Below are positions 29,122 through 48,403 of a DNA stretch of 64,000 nt, one piece after another (the first letter of the stretch is position 1; each line of letters starts with the position of its first letter). Source of the DNA: Kaistia adipata DSM 17808 (lineage in GTDB: Bacteria; Pseudomonadota; Alphaproteobacteria; Rhizobiales; Kaistiaceae). A program made the translations under genes and the position numbers. The notes below the pieces were generated by a model. It was not told where the DNA came from. It saw only the letters and a list, made by a program, of their open reading frames with translations, and did no database searches. The DNA lies in contig NZ_AUHO01000010.1 in assembly GCF_000423225.1 (NCBI RefSeq), positions 496,001 to 560,000 on the forward strand, given 5' to 3'.

Positions 29122-29383
29122 GAATCACGAGCAGATGCCGCCGGGGCCAACAGGCGTTAATGGGTCCGACATCACGGTGGGCGACGCACCGCCAGAGGGG
29201 CCCGGACCCCGCTCGTACGGTTGAAATGGCACCGGAGCGCCGGGTGCGCAAGCCCGGAAGCTCGAAATTATCTCGACATCCCGGTATCTTTGGTGCAACC
29301 AACCTAACGACTTCCACCCTCGGAGGCGCCATTCGCTCGGCGGCGCCCAAAGGAGGGAAACCGCTGCAGATCGAGGGTTCACA

Positions 29384-44155: not shown

Positions 44156-45166
44156 ATGATGATTACGAGGAGAGCCCTTGCGCTGCTGGCGCTCGGAACC
44201 GCGCTGGTGGCGCCCGGCCTGGCGCAGGCGGCGGAGAAGACCATCGCCTTCATGCGCGGCGGTCCGGATCCGTACTACCAGTACGGCATGAACGCGGCCC
44301 AGGCCGCGGCCGACAAGCTCGGCGTCAAGCTGATCACCTATTCGGCCAACAACGACCCGACCCAGGAACTCGCCAACGTCCAGGACGCGATCACCAAGGG
44401 CGTCGACGGCATCTTGATCTACGCCGTGTCGCTGTCGTCGGAAAAGGCCGCCATCGCGCAGGCCAAGAAGGCCGGCGTGCCGATCTTCTTCCAGTACGGC
44501 TATGACGAGTCGATCCTGGCGGATTCGGCCGGCATCATGCAGATCGACCTCTTCCGGTTCGGCGAGCCCGTCGGCGAGGCGATCGGCAAGCTGCTGCCGG
44601 AGGGCGAATACGCCACCATCACCGGCAAGCTCGGCCGCGGCGACGCGGAAGCCTTCGCCCAGTCGTTCAAGAACGGCATGGCGAAGTCGGGCTCGAAGGC
44701 TGTCTCCGTGGCCGATGTCGCGGCCGATTGGGACCGCCAGAAGGCGATGGACGCCGCCTCGCAGATCCTGACGGCTCATCCGAACGTCAAGGCGATCTAC
44801 GCCGCCAATGACGACATGGCCGTCGGCGTCGCCATCGCCATCGACCGCGCCGGCAAGACCGGCGAGATCCTGATCGGCGGCAACAACGGCGCGCCCTATG
44901 GCGTCGAGCTGATCGAGAAGGGCCAGATGACCCTGACCGGCAGCAACCCGCCGTCGATCGCCTCGGTCCATGCGCTGCGCCTGCTGCTCGGCGTCATCGA
45001 CGGTACGGTCAAGCCGGGCCAGTTCTACTACGCTCCGACCCAGGTGATCACCAAGGACAATCTGGCCGATGCCGCTCCCTGGGATGCAAAGCCTGAAATG
45101 GTGACCAAGTGGCTGGAAGAGCCGCTGCCGCAGGGTGCAGCCCCTCCGGTTCCGCCCTCCGAGTGA
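44156..45166 (+). CDS. Periplasmic sugar-binding protein, RbsB/XylF-like
   Basis: The 336-residue protein has a signal peptide (RRALALLALGTALVAPGLAQA) and the peripla_BP_4 fold: KTIAFMRGGPDPYYQYGMNAA, DAITKGVDGILIYAVS, AIYAANDDMAVGVAIAI and VITKDNL near the end. Aromatic residues for sugar stacking (PYYQYG, FFQYGYDE) and NDD are present. GGAGGA precedes the start. A short proline-rich end follows. It captures the ligand for the ATPase and permease encoded just upstream. Which sugar is bound cannot be read from the sequence. Confidence 0.93.
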   Translation: MMITRRALALLALGTALVAPGLAQAAEKTIAFMRGGPDPYYQYGMNAAQAAADKLGVKLITYSANNDPTQELANVQDAITKGVDGILIYAVSLSSEKAAIAQAKKAGVPIFFQYGYDESILADSAGIMQIDLFRFGEPVGEAIGKLLPEGEYATITGKLGRGDAEAFAQSFKNGMAKSGSKAVSVADVAADWDRQKAMDAASQILTAHPNVKAIYAANDDMAVGVAIAIDRAGKTGEILIGGNNGAPYGVELIEKGQMTLTGSNPPSIASVHALRLLLGVIDGTVKPGQFYYAPTQVITKDNLADAAPWDAKPEMVTKWLEEPLPQGAAPPVPPSE

Positions 45167-45272
45167 TGTGCCGGGCCGGCGGACCATCGGGTTCGCCGGC
45201 TCGTTCCAGCGGAGCCGGACCGCGAGGCCCGGCCCGCGAGGCTTCCATCGCGATGCTGAGAAGAGACGTGCC

Positions 45273-46121
45273 ATGAAGATCGGTTTCAATCTCCTGCTCT
45301 GGACCGCCCATGTCGAACCCCGGCACTGGCCGATCCTCGAGGACCTGAAGCGCTGCGGCTATGACGGCGTCGAGATCCCGATCTTCGAGGGCACGCCGGA
45401 GCACTATGCGGAGCTCGGACGCGAGCTCGACCGGCTCGGCCTCGACCGCACCGTGATCGCGCTGTTCCCCGGCACCGAAATGAACCCGATCGGCGAAGAC
45501 GCCGCCCAGCAGGATGCGGCTCGCCGCCACATGCAGTGGATCCTCGATTGCTCCGCCGCCCTCGGCGCGAACGTCGTCGGTGGCCCCCTGCATTCGACGC
45601 TCGGCCATTTCTCCGGCGATGCGCCGACCGCCGTCGAACGCGAGCGCGGCATCACCTTCCACCGCGAGGCGGGCGACATGGCCAAGGCACGCGGCATCAC
45701 GCTGGTGCTGGAGGCGGTCAACCGCTTCGAATGCTATTTCGTCAACACGATGCACGATCTCGCCGGCTACCTGGCCGAGGTCGACCATCCCAATGTCGCC
45801 GGCATGTACGACACCTTCCACGCCAATATCGAGGAGAAGGATCCGCTGGCCGCCGTCACCGCCATCGCGCCGCATCTGGCGCATGTGCATGTTTCCGAGA
45901 ACGATCGCGGCACGCCCGGCAAGGGCCACATCGATTTCGCCAGCACGTTCAAGGCGCTGAAGGCGGTCGACTATGACGGCTGGATCACCATCGAGGCGTT
46001 CGGTCGCTCGATGCCGCTGCTCGCCGCGGCGACGCGCGTCTGGCGCGACCTCTTCCCCACCACGACCGAAGTCTACAGCGACGGCTACACGCTGATCCGT
46101 GACGGCTGGCGTGCCGCCTGA
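45273..46121 (+). CDS. Sugar isomerase/epimerase, D-tagatose/D-psicose 3-epimerase-like
   Basis: The 282-residue TIM-barrel protein (MKIGFNLLLWTAHVEPRHWP) resembles ketose 3-epimerases and hydroxypyruvate-isomerase-like enzymes: DGVEIPIFEGTPEHY, NVVGGPLHSTLGHFSG, LVLEAVNRFECYFVNT (metal-binding Glu), YDTFHANIEEK, HVHVSENDRGTPGKGHIDF and WITIEAFG with the second catalytic Glu. Mn2+ or Co2+ would be bound by the two Glu, the Asp and the His. It follows the binding-protein gene by 106 bases and is probably cotranscribed. Two isomerases in one operon suggest a route with two rearrangements. Confidence 0.88.
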   Translation: MKIGFNLLLWTAHVEPRHWPILEDLKRCGYDGVEIPIFEGTPEHYAELGRELDRLGLDRTVIALFPGTEMNPIGEDAAQQDAARRHMQWILDCSAALGANVVGGPLHSTLGHFSGDAPTAVERERGITFHREAGDMAKARGITLVLEAVNRFECYFVNTMHDLAGYLAEVDHPNVAGMYDTFHANIEEKDPLAAVTAIAPHLAHVHVSENDRGTPGKGHIDFASTFKALKAVDYDGWITIEAFGRSMPLLAAATRVWRDLFPTTTEVYSDGYTLIRDGWRAA

Positions 46122-46166
46122 ACTTGAACTTGAGAGCGGCCATCGACGCGCCGCGAGGGTATCTAC

Positions 46167-47720
46167 ATGAACGAGGCAGCCCCCATCTCTGCCCAGCCGC
46201 GGACGCTCGTCCTCAATGGCTCCGACAACATCGCCGTGGCGCTCGGCAATCTCGAGGCCGGCACGACGACGGCGCAGGGCGTCCAGATCACCCGCCGCGT
46301 GCCGCGCGGCCATAAATTCGCGCTCCGGCCGATCGCCGCCGGCGAGCCGGTCGTCAAGTTCGGCCAGATCATCGGCTTCGCGAAAACCGACATCGCGCCC
46401 GGTGACTGGGTGCACGAGCATAATTGCGGCATCGGCGAGGAGCACGGCGCCTTCGCGCGTGACTACGCCTTCGGCGAGGGCGTGGTGCCGACGCACTATG
46501 TGCCGGCGGCCGAGCAGGCGACCTTCCAGGGCTTCCGCCGCGCCAACGGCAAGGTGGGCACGCGCAACTATGTCGGCATCCTCACCTCGGTGAACTGCTC
46601 GACGACGGTCGCCGGCTTCATCGCCGCCGAGATCGAGCGCTCCGGCATCCTGAACGACTATCCGAACATCGACGGCATCGTCGCGCTGAAGCAGGCGAAT
46701 GGCTGCGTCATCGACTATCGCGGCGTCATCTTCGACACGCTGAAGCGCACCACCTGGGGCTATGCCACCAACCCGAACATGGGCGGCGTCGTCATGGTCG
46801 GCCTCGGCTGCGAGGGCTTCCAGATCCCGCGCTTCAAGGACGCCTACGGGATCGAGGAGAGCGAGACCTTCCGCACCATGACGATCCAGGAGGTCGGCGG
46901 CACGCGGAAGACGGTCGACGCCGGCGTCGAGGCGGTGAAGGCGATGCTGCCGATCGTCAACAGCGTCCAGCGCGAGACCGTGCCGGCGAGCGAGCTGATG
47001 CTCGCCCTGCAATGCGGCGGATCCGACGGCTATTCCGGCATCACCGCCAATCCGGCGCTCGGCGTCGCCGCCGATATCCTGGTCCGCAATGGCGGCACCG
47101 CGATCCTGTCCGAGACGCCCGAGATCTACGGCGCGGAGCATCTGCTCACTCGCCGCGCCGTCTCGCGCGAGATCGGCGAGAAGCTGGTCGACATCATCCA
47201 TTGGTGGGAGGACTACGCGCAGCGTAACCTCATGGAGATGAACAACAATCCGTCGCCCGGCAACAAGCAGGGCGGGTTGACGACCATTCTCGAGAAGTCG
47301 CTCGGGGCCGCTGCCAAGGGCGGCACCTCGCCGCTGACCGCCGTCTATGGCTATGCCGAGCCGGTGACCGAGAAGGGCTTCGTGTTCATGGACACGCCCG
47401 GCTACGACCCGGTCTCGGCGACGGGCCAGGTCGCCGGCGGCGCCAACATCCTCTGCTTCACCACGGGGCGCGGCTCCGCCTATGGCTGCAAGCCGACGCC
47501 ATCGATCAAGATCGCCACCAATTCCGAGATCTACGCCAAGATGATCGAGGACATGGATATCAATGGCGGCGACGTGCTCGACGGCAAGTCGCTCGAGGCG
47601 AAGGGGCAGGAGATCTTCGACGAGATCCTCGCGGTCGCCTCCGGCAAGCGCAGCAAGTCCGAGCTTCTCGGCTATGGCGACAACGAATTCGTGCCCTGGC
47701 AGATCGGCGCGACATTCTGA
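46167..47720 (+). CDS. UxaA/GarD-family altronate/galactarate-type dehydratase
   Basis: The 517-residue enzyme joins the small N-terminal SAF-like domain (about residues 1-100, with HEHNCGIGEEHGAF) to the large C-terminal dehydratase domain (GFRRANGKVGTRNYVGILTSVNCSTT, LALQCGGSDGYSGITANPALG, NNPSPGNKQGGLTTILEKSLG). Members dehydrate D-altronate, D-galactarate or related acids to 2-keto-3-deoxy acids using Fe2+. Hence the operon's sugar is likely oxidised or isomerised to an aldonate/aldarate before this step. It is 45 bases after the epimerase gene and the last gene of the operon in the window; no KDG kinase or aldolase follows. Confidence 0.92.
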   Translation: MNEAAPISAQPRTLVLNGSDNIAVALGNLEAGTTTAQGVQITRRVPRGHKFALRPIAAGEPVVKFGQIIGFAKTDIAPGDWVHEHNCGIGEEHGAFARDYAFGEGVVPTHYVPAAEQATFQGFRRANGKVGTRNYVGILTSVNCSTTVAGFIAAEIERSGILNDYPNIDGIVALKQANGCVIDYRGVIFDTLKRTTWGYATNPNMGGVVMVGLGCEGFQIPRFKDAYGIEESETFRTMTIQEVGGTRKTVDAGVEAVKAMLPIVNSVQRETVPASELMLALQCGGSDGYSGITANPALGVAADILVRNGGTAILSETPEIYGAEHLLTRRAVSREIGEKLVDIIHWWEDYAQRNLMEMNNNPSPGNKQGGLTTILEKSLGAAAKGGTSPLTAVYGYAEPVTEKGFVFMDTPGYDPVSATGQVAGGANILCFTTGRGSAYGCKPTPSIKIATNSEIYAKMIEDMDINGGDVLDGKSLEAKGQEIFDEILAVASGKRSKSELLGYGDNEFVPWQIGATF

Positions 47721-48018
47721 GGATCTTCGAACAGCGCGCGCGATGTAGACGCGGCGCGCCGGCGCGGAAGGCCTGCCGGGTTTGAGCCCGGTGTCGCACG
47801 CGCTCGGCCTCGCCGGCCGCGTCGGCCTCGCCGGCGCACTGCTGCCGCTCGTCCGGATCGTGGCGCTGGCCGGCTTGGAGCTGAAGAGGACCGGGATTCA
47901 GGCCTCAGTCCTCACCATGCTGACCTGGATGTATCCGAACGACGCGTGCATCCCGGTCCCCGAGCGCGGCGAGGGGATGCCTTGCCCGGCATGCCGGGCA
48001 TCGCTATCTAGGAGCGAT
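47721..48018. other. Intergenic region after uxaA-like gene, with an 18-base palindrome
   Basis: About 300 bases between the dehydratase gene and the riboswitch. A perfect palindrome TGCCCGGCATGCCGGGCA lies at 47983-48000 but is followed by no T run, so it is a weak terminator candidate at best. No coding frame here looks real; the apparent Leu/Ala-rich frame running through the region reads across the riboswitch and sugE in the wrong frame. Confidence 0.4.
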
Positions 48019-48067
48019 CGAGGAACGACCTCCCCATATCGGGAAAGCATGTCCGGGACGGCCCGGC
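48019..48067 (+). promoter_or_regulatory. Guanidine-II (mini-ykkC) riboswitch upstream of guanidinium exporter
   Basis: Two small hairpins fit the mini-ykkC class: GAGG-AACGA-CCTC (48020-48032) and CCGGG-ACGG-CCCGG (48053-48066), separated by 20 bases. Class members consist of two hairpins with ACGR loops that dimerise around guanidinium and expose the ribosome site. The second hairpin matches exactly; the first has a five-base loop with an additional A, or a bulge. The AGGAGG of sugE starts nine bases after the second stem, and the controlled gene is a SugE/Gdx, the expected target. The call is from pattern reading; a covariance search would settle it. Confidence 0.8.
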
Positions 48068-48085
48068 CCATCGAAGGAGGGCCGC

Positions 48086-48403
48086 ATGGCCTGGGTTTAT
48101 CTTGTTCTCGCCGGTATCTTCGAGGTCGTCTGGGCGTCGGCGATGAAGCAGTCGGACGGCTTCACCAAGCTCTGGCCGAGCGTCGTCACCATCGTCACGA
48201 TGATCATCAGCTTCGCGCTGCTGTCGATCTCGATGAAGTCGCTGCCGCTCGGCACGGCCTATGCGATCTGGACCGGCATCGGCGCCGTCGGCGCCTTCTG
48301 CGTCGGCATCTTCTGGCTCGGCGAGGCCGCCTCGCTGTTCCGGATCGTCAGCGTCGCGCTGATCCTGTCCGGCCTGATCGGCCTCAAGCTCTCGACCCAC
48401 TGA
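48086..48403 (+). CDS. sugE: Guanidinium exporter (SugE/Gdx, small multidrug resistance family)
   Basis: The 105-residue protein has four membrane spans and aligns by eye with E. coli SugE/Gdx: MAWVYLVLAGIFEVVWASAMK with the essential Glu13, MKSLPLGTAYAIWTGIGAVGA, and the ending LSGLIGLKLSTH, identical to SugE at the last residues. Gdx proteins are proton-coupled dual-topology exporters of guanidinium. AGGAGG lies five bases before the ATG, directly after the two-hairpin riboswitch. The gene stands alone. Confidence 0.95.
   Translation: MAWVYLVLAGIFEVVWASAMKQSDGFTKLWPSVVTIVTMIISFALLSISMKSLPLGTAYAIWTGIGAVGAFCVGIFWLGEAASLFRIVSVALILSGLIGLKLSTH

Follow-up and report, generated by a model that had tools for sequence, protein, structure and literature searches.

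A guanidine-II-type leader with a five-base P1 loop before a gdx gene in Kaistia adipata, and its possible connection with a second ATP synthase subunit a

Guanidinium is a toxic ion. Guanidine-II riboswitches (mini-ykkC, RF01068) are described as two ACGR tetraloops that bind cooperatively (PMC5486947, PMC7266159, PMC12186494). Their linkers have at least 13 nt in the great majority, and they are located near the ribosome site of guanidine-related genes (PMC5486947); a consensus of 2025 was built on 1977 sequences (PMC12335538). In the hairpin crystals of G. violaceus the ligand stacks on the G preceding the loop. It contacts the phosphates of loop bases one and two, where the backbone turns very tightly, and the loop G through its O6/N7 edge; loop base four is extruded. 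The contacts are G6, the phosphates of A7 and C8, and G9 (PMC5486947). For E. coli the linker has been proposed to hold an anti-Shine-Dalgarno (anti-SD) sequence (PMC9094411). Na+-I riboswitches occasionally control sodium-driven ATP synthases (PMC9971707), and the guanidine stress response has been described as known only as efflux (PMC12186494). The statements cited here and below follow portions of these papers.

We analysed a 64,000-nt stretch of the Kaistia adipata DSM 17808 genome, hereafter the window, whose positions are used throughout. The leader of its gdx/sugE gene resembles guanidine-II in its two GC-rich hairpins, the ACG core in both loops, a 20-nt linker, its place directly before the SD of gdx/sugE and its probable action as a translational ON switch. 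It differs in the five-base P1 loop (six bases in a sister form), a hairpin within the linker and a score below the Rfam gathering cut-off. The features are as follows.

47793-47964, + strand: decayed 3' end of an atpB2-type gene (77% nucleotide identity, blastn)
47981-48009, + strand: promoter-like CTTGCC-N17-CTATCT (sequence match, putative function; the RNA would start just 5' of P1)
48020-48032, + strand: P1 hairpin, GAGG-AACGA-CCUC, 4 bp with a five-base loop (direct sequence reading)
48033-48052, + strand: linker between P1 and P2, 20 nt
48033-48043, + strand: third hairpin, within the linker, CCC-AUAUC-GGG (linker folding against letter shuffles)
48053-48066, + strand: P2 hairpin, CCGGG-ACGG-CCCGG, 5 bp with a canonical ACGG tetraloop (reading, Rfam and the relatives' model)
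48064-48084, + strand: SD-masking hairpin CGGCCC/GGGCCG (minimum free energy fold; covariation in 70 leaders)
48074-48080, + strand: Shine-Dalgarno AAGGAGG, starting 8 nt after P2 (direct sequence reading)
48086-48403, + strand: gdx/sugE, 105-aa SMR transporter of the guanidinium exporter family (NF008512, PF00893)

A preliminary description of this DNA had placed a guanidine-II riboswitch at 48019-48085, and these coordinates are right. The two hairpins that it reported, with ACGA- and ACGG-containing loops before the ribosome site of a Gdx-type gene, can be read directly from the letters; the second was correctly called canonical, with a GC-rich stem and an ACGR tetraloop, and the first indeed carries a five-base loop or bulge. 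The P1 loop AACGA (48024-48028) contains ACGA and is one base longer, and is thus not an ACGR tetraloop; the same letters can alternatively be read as a bulged A and an ACGA loop. The CG core present in both loops would permit two C-G kissing pairs. The linker length falls within the range described for guanidine-II, the SD lies near P2, and the ATG of gdx at 48086 follows P2 by 19 nt. The gene passes the SugE equivalog NF008512 with 133.8 bits against a cut-off of 126 and matches PF00893, bearing out the Gdx-type exporter of the preliminary description; compared with Gdx/SugE exporters, nothing notable differs. By regular expression, CTTGNY-N17-NTATNY occurs upstream of P1 in four of five Kaistia leaders and is absent in L042.

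The Rfam search that had been suggested as a check gave a divided answer, and the refuting outcome named with it, no significant covariance hit, applies only narrowly, in that the cut-off of Rfam itself is missed. RF01068 matches 48016-48066 with 25.9 bits (E 0.0017, 251-base search), below the gathering cut-off of 32, and guanidine-II is absent from the list of the whole-window Rfam scan at gathering cut-offs. The site is nevertheless the top RF01068 match of the genome (E 0.0077; runner-up E 0.36), and a model built from relatives recognises it clearly. The contigs of 84,980 species were scanned with the pattern GGAACGACC, 14-40 bases, CGGGACGRCCCG; since CGGGACGRCCCG was required, the invariance of P2 in the pentaloop set follows from the pattern itself. 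The pattern was matched by 66 contigs, 23 of which have a Gdx-like tblastn match 20-34 nt downstream: Afipia (4), Hydrocarboniphaga (1), Kaistia terrae (1), Massilia (3), Mesorhizobium (3), Methylobacillus (1), Phenylobacterium (4), Rubritepida (1), Undibacterium (3), a Burkholderiales MAG (1) and a Hyphomicrobiales MAG (1). We take these genera to span Alpha-, Beta- and Gammaproteobacteria. In one further contig, from Xanthomonas pisi (L231), the Gdx-like match is 98 nt away and P1 has no further pairs; in the other 42 a Gdx-like match was not found within 600 nt. The covariance model R1 was made from 20 non-Kaistia pentaloop leaders out of the 23 sites, excluding two Kaistia-group sites and Methylobacillus L215. 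It scores the window at 62.9 bits (E 2.3e-13, E-values being rough), and the next best place in the 64 kb at 9.7 bits. In the 20-row alignment the outermost pair of the P1 stem varies on both sides (G-C, A-U, C-G). With the SugE score and the same leader in relatives, these matches support a guanidine-II riboswitch before a Gdx-type exporter as the best reading of the window leader, in agreement with the preliminary description. R1 also gives 72.5 bits to a pentaloop leader of a proteobacterial MAG (L189:989-1037), where the following 600 nt contain no Gdx-like match.

A second expanded form was seen among SugE-family leaders. Of 397 genomes of the order searched with NF008512, at least 160 have a match; from the matches listed we read 110 leaders, 30 in loci and 80 in separately retrieved stretches. 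By motif (GAGG/GAAGG, C[A/C]ACG[ACT], CCUC/CCUUC), 22 of the 110 have a hexaloop P1 and none has a pentaloop. All 22 spell their two additional bases as C[A/C], in a set that was itself selected for the C[A/C]ACG spelling; a further six-base loop, CUCCGA in L151, is the only different spelling encountered. When bases 3' of ACG were also allowed, the scan again returned 22 leaders with two extra 5' bases, at the P1 position; a clear 3' insertion in P1 loops was not seen in the 110 leaders, most of the other entries being tetraloops read again from one pair further down the stem. The ACG hairpin closest to the start codon is a tetraloop in 68 leaders and expanded in none, the other 42 of the 110 having no such hairpin of at least 5 bp. 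An expanded loop in P2 was thereby rejected (0/68); the single entry of this kind, L058 at 62 nt, proved to be the P1 of that leader. The occurrence of hexaloops beyond Alphaproteobacteria was likewise rejected: the exact pattern was present in 1 of the 270 genomes of the class draw and in 4 of the 279 of the phylum draw, each belonging to the window's class. A script finds the ACG core in 47 of the 48 expanded loops; the exception, L294, is a parsing artefact, being the same site as L128, which reads GGAGGCCACGCCCTCC. None of the expanded-loop leaders scanned reaches the Rfam gathering cut-off, neither the pentaloops (0/18 scanned of 23) nor the hexaloops (0/20 scanned of 22; best 26.8 bits); because all 38 were missed, the number of guanidine regulons in such bacteria is probably underestimated. 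In the open-licence literature, supplements aside, we found no description of a 'hexaloop' or 'pentaloop' guanidine-II, although earlier lists of longer P1 loops or of atpB are possible. Guanidine-II with an enlarged P1 thus appears as a recurring, overlooked variety.

The distribution of the forms was followed on a Gdx tree of 111 proteins and 106 columns (60 tetraloop, 26 hexaloop, 23 pentaloop and 2 AUGA/ACAA), from which the duplicates L209 and L328, the partial L053, five leaders without a recognised P1 and two without P2 were omitted. On this tree, for which many rows were picked by loop pattern and in which many forks are unresolved, 48 of the 49 expanded-loop leaders fall in a single clade of 70 (support 96/95). 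The sole one outside is Methylobacillus L215, on a very long branch, and all other rows outside the clade are tetraloops. Within the clade loop length changed often: the pentaloop needs 10 changes, at least 6 of them forced by starred branches, which rules out a single origin. The idea that the five-base loop may be of interest for the ligand pocket, as previously put forward, is reasonable; the loop is not peculiar to this site, however: two expanded P1 forms, of which it is one, are found repeatedly, for the most part within a single Gdx clade.

The same variability is found among close relatives. Five Kaistia gdx genes with 76-100% protein identity have AACGA in the window, L041 and L053 and an ACGA tetraloop in L040 and L042 (L041 and L209 are one site, as are L053 and L238), and another genome of the genus, G310, has the same leader as the window. 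In Kaistia G306 (L044) and G309 (L043), which are sister rows (100/97), the gdx leader loops are AUGA in P1 and ACAA in P2; their complementarity is kept as U-A plus G-C, and the ligand-reading G of L2 is replaced by A. Five of 397 order genomes match this pattern, two of them before gdx, and the other three matches (L088, L091, L092) gave no match to R1 at E up to 1. Because the variant represents one event and P1 of L043 contains a mismatch, it argues only weakly for a natural pairing of P1 with P2.

Two structural features accompany the expanded loops. Compared with letter shuffles, the linker folds with a mean z of -1.47 in 20 distinct pentaloop and -1.72 in 25 distinct hexaloop leaders, against -1.0 in 19 tetraloop leaders of the same clade and -0.03 in 36 outside it. 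The other feature is the pairing of the 3' arm of P2 with the SD region, which covaries: when partners were swapped among the 70 clade leaders, with relatedness not removed, the own partners gave -11.44 kcal/mol and permuted ones -9.48 kcal/mol (sd 0.26), and none of 5000 permutations was as good. By subset, 1 (tetraloop), 51 (pentaloop) and 0 (hexaloop) of 5000 were as good. The helix is weaker than -6 kcal/mol in 16 of the 70, including Afipia L178, L188 and L203, and L305, L307 and L017. The 3' arm of P1 (ACCUCC) is also complementary to GGAGG, but as an anti-SD it does not covary in the 70 leaders (1946/5000 permutations as good), and the P2/SD helix is therefore preferred. Both features are present in the window, with -3.5 kcal/mol for the linker hairpin (48033-48043) and -14.6 kcal/mol for the SD helix (48064-48084). 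Since 48064-48066 is common to both, the SD helix and P2 are mutually exclusive. The minimum free energy fold of the 80-nt leader differs from the two-hairpin form. Forced folds, which contain no ligand or loop-loop terms, give -26.2 kcal/mol for ON and -31.8 to -32.0 kcal/mol for OFF, and the unpaired probability of the SD is 0.44 when free and 0.61 with P1, the linker hairpin and P2 forced.

We infer that the window leader is very probably a variant of the guanidine-II type that switches translation ON. With ligand absent, the 3' arm of P2 (CGGCCC) would pair with the SD region (GGGCCG) and gdx would be off. When guanidinium rises, P1 and P2 would join through two loop-loop C-G pairs between the ACG core of L1 and the ACGG of L2, so that P2 would be locked, the SD freed and the exporter produced; the linker hairpin probably shortens and orients the P1-P2 connection. 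In the P. aeruginosa guanidine-II platform, similarly, the SD is masked without ligand and freed when P1 and P2 form; the pairing proposed for that platform joins the 5' and 3' flanks as P0 (PMC9561414), whereas here the 3' arm of P2 itself would pair with the SD region. The extra base or bases of the P1 loop follow the closing G and precede the A of ACG, at the turn that holds the ligand in the crystal structures. An insertion at this turn would point to an asymmetric switch with one standard site, an argument based on homodimer crystals of other species; most likely the standard guanidinium site is kept in P2, and that of P1 is altered or lost. Such a natural, recurrent form with one altered loop would offer a ready test of the need for two sites and of the tolerance of the kissing complex.

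The leader could also be an ordinary guanidine-II riboswitch. In that case the extra base would be flipped out, both sites would bind guanidinium and loop length would be neutral drift, and we regard this as a serious possibility, if somewhat short of an even one. Loop length does vary among sister Kaistia (five in the window and L041, four in L040 and L042), the pentaloop label needs the 10 tree changes given above, at least 6 of them forced, and the gene is the same in all cases. Against it stand the placement of the clear insertions, which in the 110 leaders lie solely 5' of ACG and solely in P1 (22 with two extra bases), the lack of any enlarged P2 loop in 68, and the C[A/C] spelling of the extra bases in 22/22, this last figure being motif-selected and L151 being one other spelling. 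It is improbable that P1 is instead decaying and the element acts by way of P2 only, or of P2 dimers formed by two transcripts. The P1 loop is looser than that of P2 in the clade, and at higher RNA concentration one stem loop on its own is able to dimerise and bind (PMC5486947); yet the outermost P1 pair changes on both sides with pairing kept, the ACG core is retained, and the regular spelling of 22 hexaloops is unexpected under decay.

The altered turn adjoins the pocket, and the AUGA/ACAA loops of Kaistia G306 and G309 keep complementarity while exchanging the G of L2 that reads the ligand for A, so that the expanded-loop subclass might sense another guanidino compound. We consider this quite improbable, because the controlled gene belongs to the SugE/Gdx family in the leaders counted and P2 is unchanged in both the pentaloop and the hexaloop forms. 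Chance hairpins without regulation would fit the sub-gathering Rfam score and a leader fold energy that does not improve on that of shuffles (z 0.07), but they are extremely improbable: the 62.9-bit match to a model from other genera refutes chance in sequence terms, and the same position before Gdx-like genes is occupied in many genera.

The neighbourhood of related leaders suggests that efflux may be one part of a wider arrangement. In Mesorhizobium Root552, Afipia massiliensis, Afipia OHSU_II-C1, G202 and Kaistia G306 and G309, an atpB-like gene, here termed atpB2, stands between a guanidine-II riboswitch and the gdx leader. Four AtpB2 proteins score 337.9 to 362.0 against the ATP synthase subunit A cut-off of 225, and the gene is a second copy beside the main atpB in 3 of 14 Kaistia and, at 70% or more, in 3 of 297 order genomes; G171 also gave a second match. 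On sequence grounds the riboswitch and atpB2 are linked. RF01068 scores over its cut-off within ~240 nt upstream in all ten atpB2 loci with upstream sequence (L216, L188, L190, L239, L240, L241, L255, L256, L257 and L330, the last on a Phyllobacterium plasmid with 34.0 bits), seven of which come from protein-similarity searches, five of the seven being already known from Rfam or gdx matches. Guanidine-II was found upstream of the main atpB in none of 20 loci (of 40). In four of the ten loci (L239, L255, L256, L330) gdx is not directly behind atpB2.

Several fixed columns differ between ten atpB2 proteins and 40 main copies. The residue four positions after a conserved Arg is Val in 10/10 paralogues and Asn in all 40 main copies (Val in 0/40), and with the likewise Val-bearing L330 the count is 11/11; three positions before the Arg, Leu is replaced by His in 10/10 against 1/40. 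From the motif and the E. coli numbering, we take the Arg and the Asn to be aR210 and aN214 of E. coli; aArg210 is essential. The residue aN214 is part of the proton input channel beside aR210 (PMC9447477) and among the most ion-accessible residues (PMC6377231). A special reading of the Val is weakened, since glycine or hydrophobic residues are natural at this position in some species (PMC9447477). Guanidine-II before atpB2 recalls the Na+-I riboswitches, which also stand before ATP synthase genes, but these have another ligand and serve sodium-driven ATP synthase complexes, whereas atpB2 encodes one spare subunit a (PMC9971707). A link of guanidine riboswitches to ATP synthase was not found in the portions of PMC12342949 and PMC9971707 consulted.

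The window itself retains a trace of this gene. The relic at 47793-47964 matches atpB2 of Kaistia terrae (L239) with 77% identity over 176 columns (E 3e-30), and gives no blastn match at 1e-3 to the main atpB locus of its own genome (L248); by tblastn it is closer to atpB2 (58%, L240) than to the main protein (47%). With a decayed atpB2 in front of the gdx leader, the riboswitch of the window probably served at one time as the second switch in a riboswitch-atpB2-riboswitch-gdx unit; of the first switch, Rfam at its cut-offs finds no trace in the window. We tentatively propose that the window could represent half of an unreported guanidine response, in which AtpB2 may tolerate guanidinium and replace the usual subunit during export of the ion by Gdx, and that atpB2 decayed in this lineage, leaving the asymmetric switch and gdx. 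If its role is as proposed, atpB2 would name a target of guanidinium toxicity and extend the response beyond efflux. A second atpB2 relic stands before gdx in G348 (L312).

Elsewhere in the window, the riboswitch is adjoined at 44156-47720 by a sugar-acid run comprising an ABC sugar-binding protein, a xylose-isomerase-like epimerase and a member of the galactarate/altronate dehydratase family. A terC RNA (RF03067) lies on the - strand at 29157-29213, with 57.6 bits against a cut-off of 39.9.
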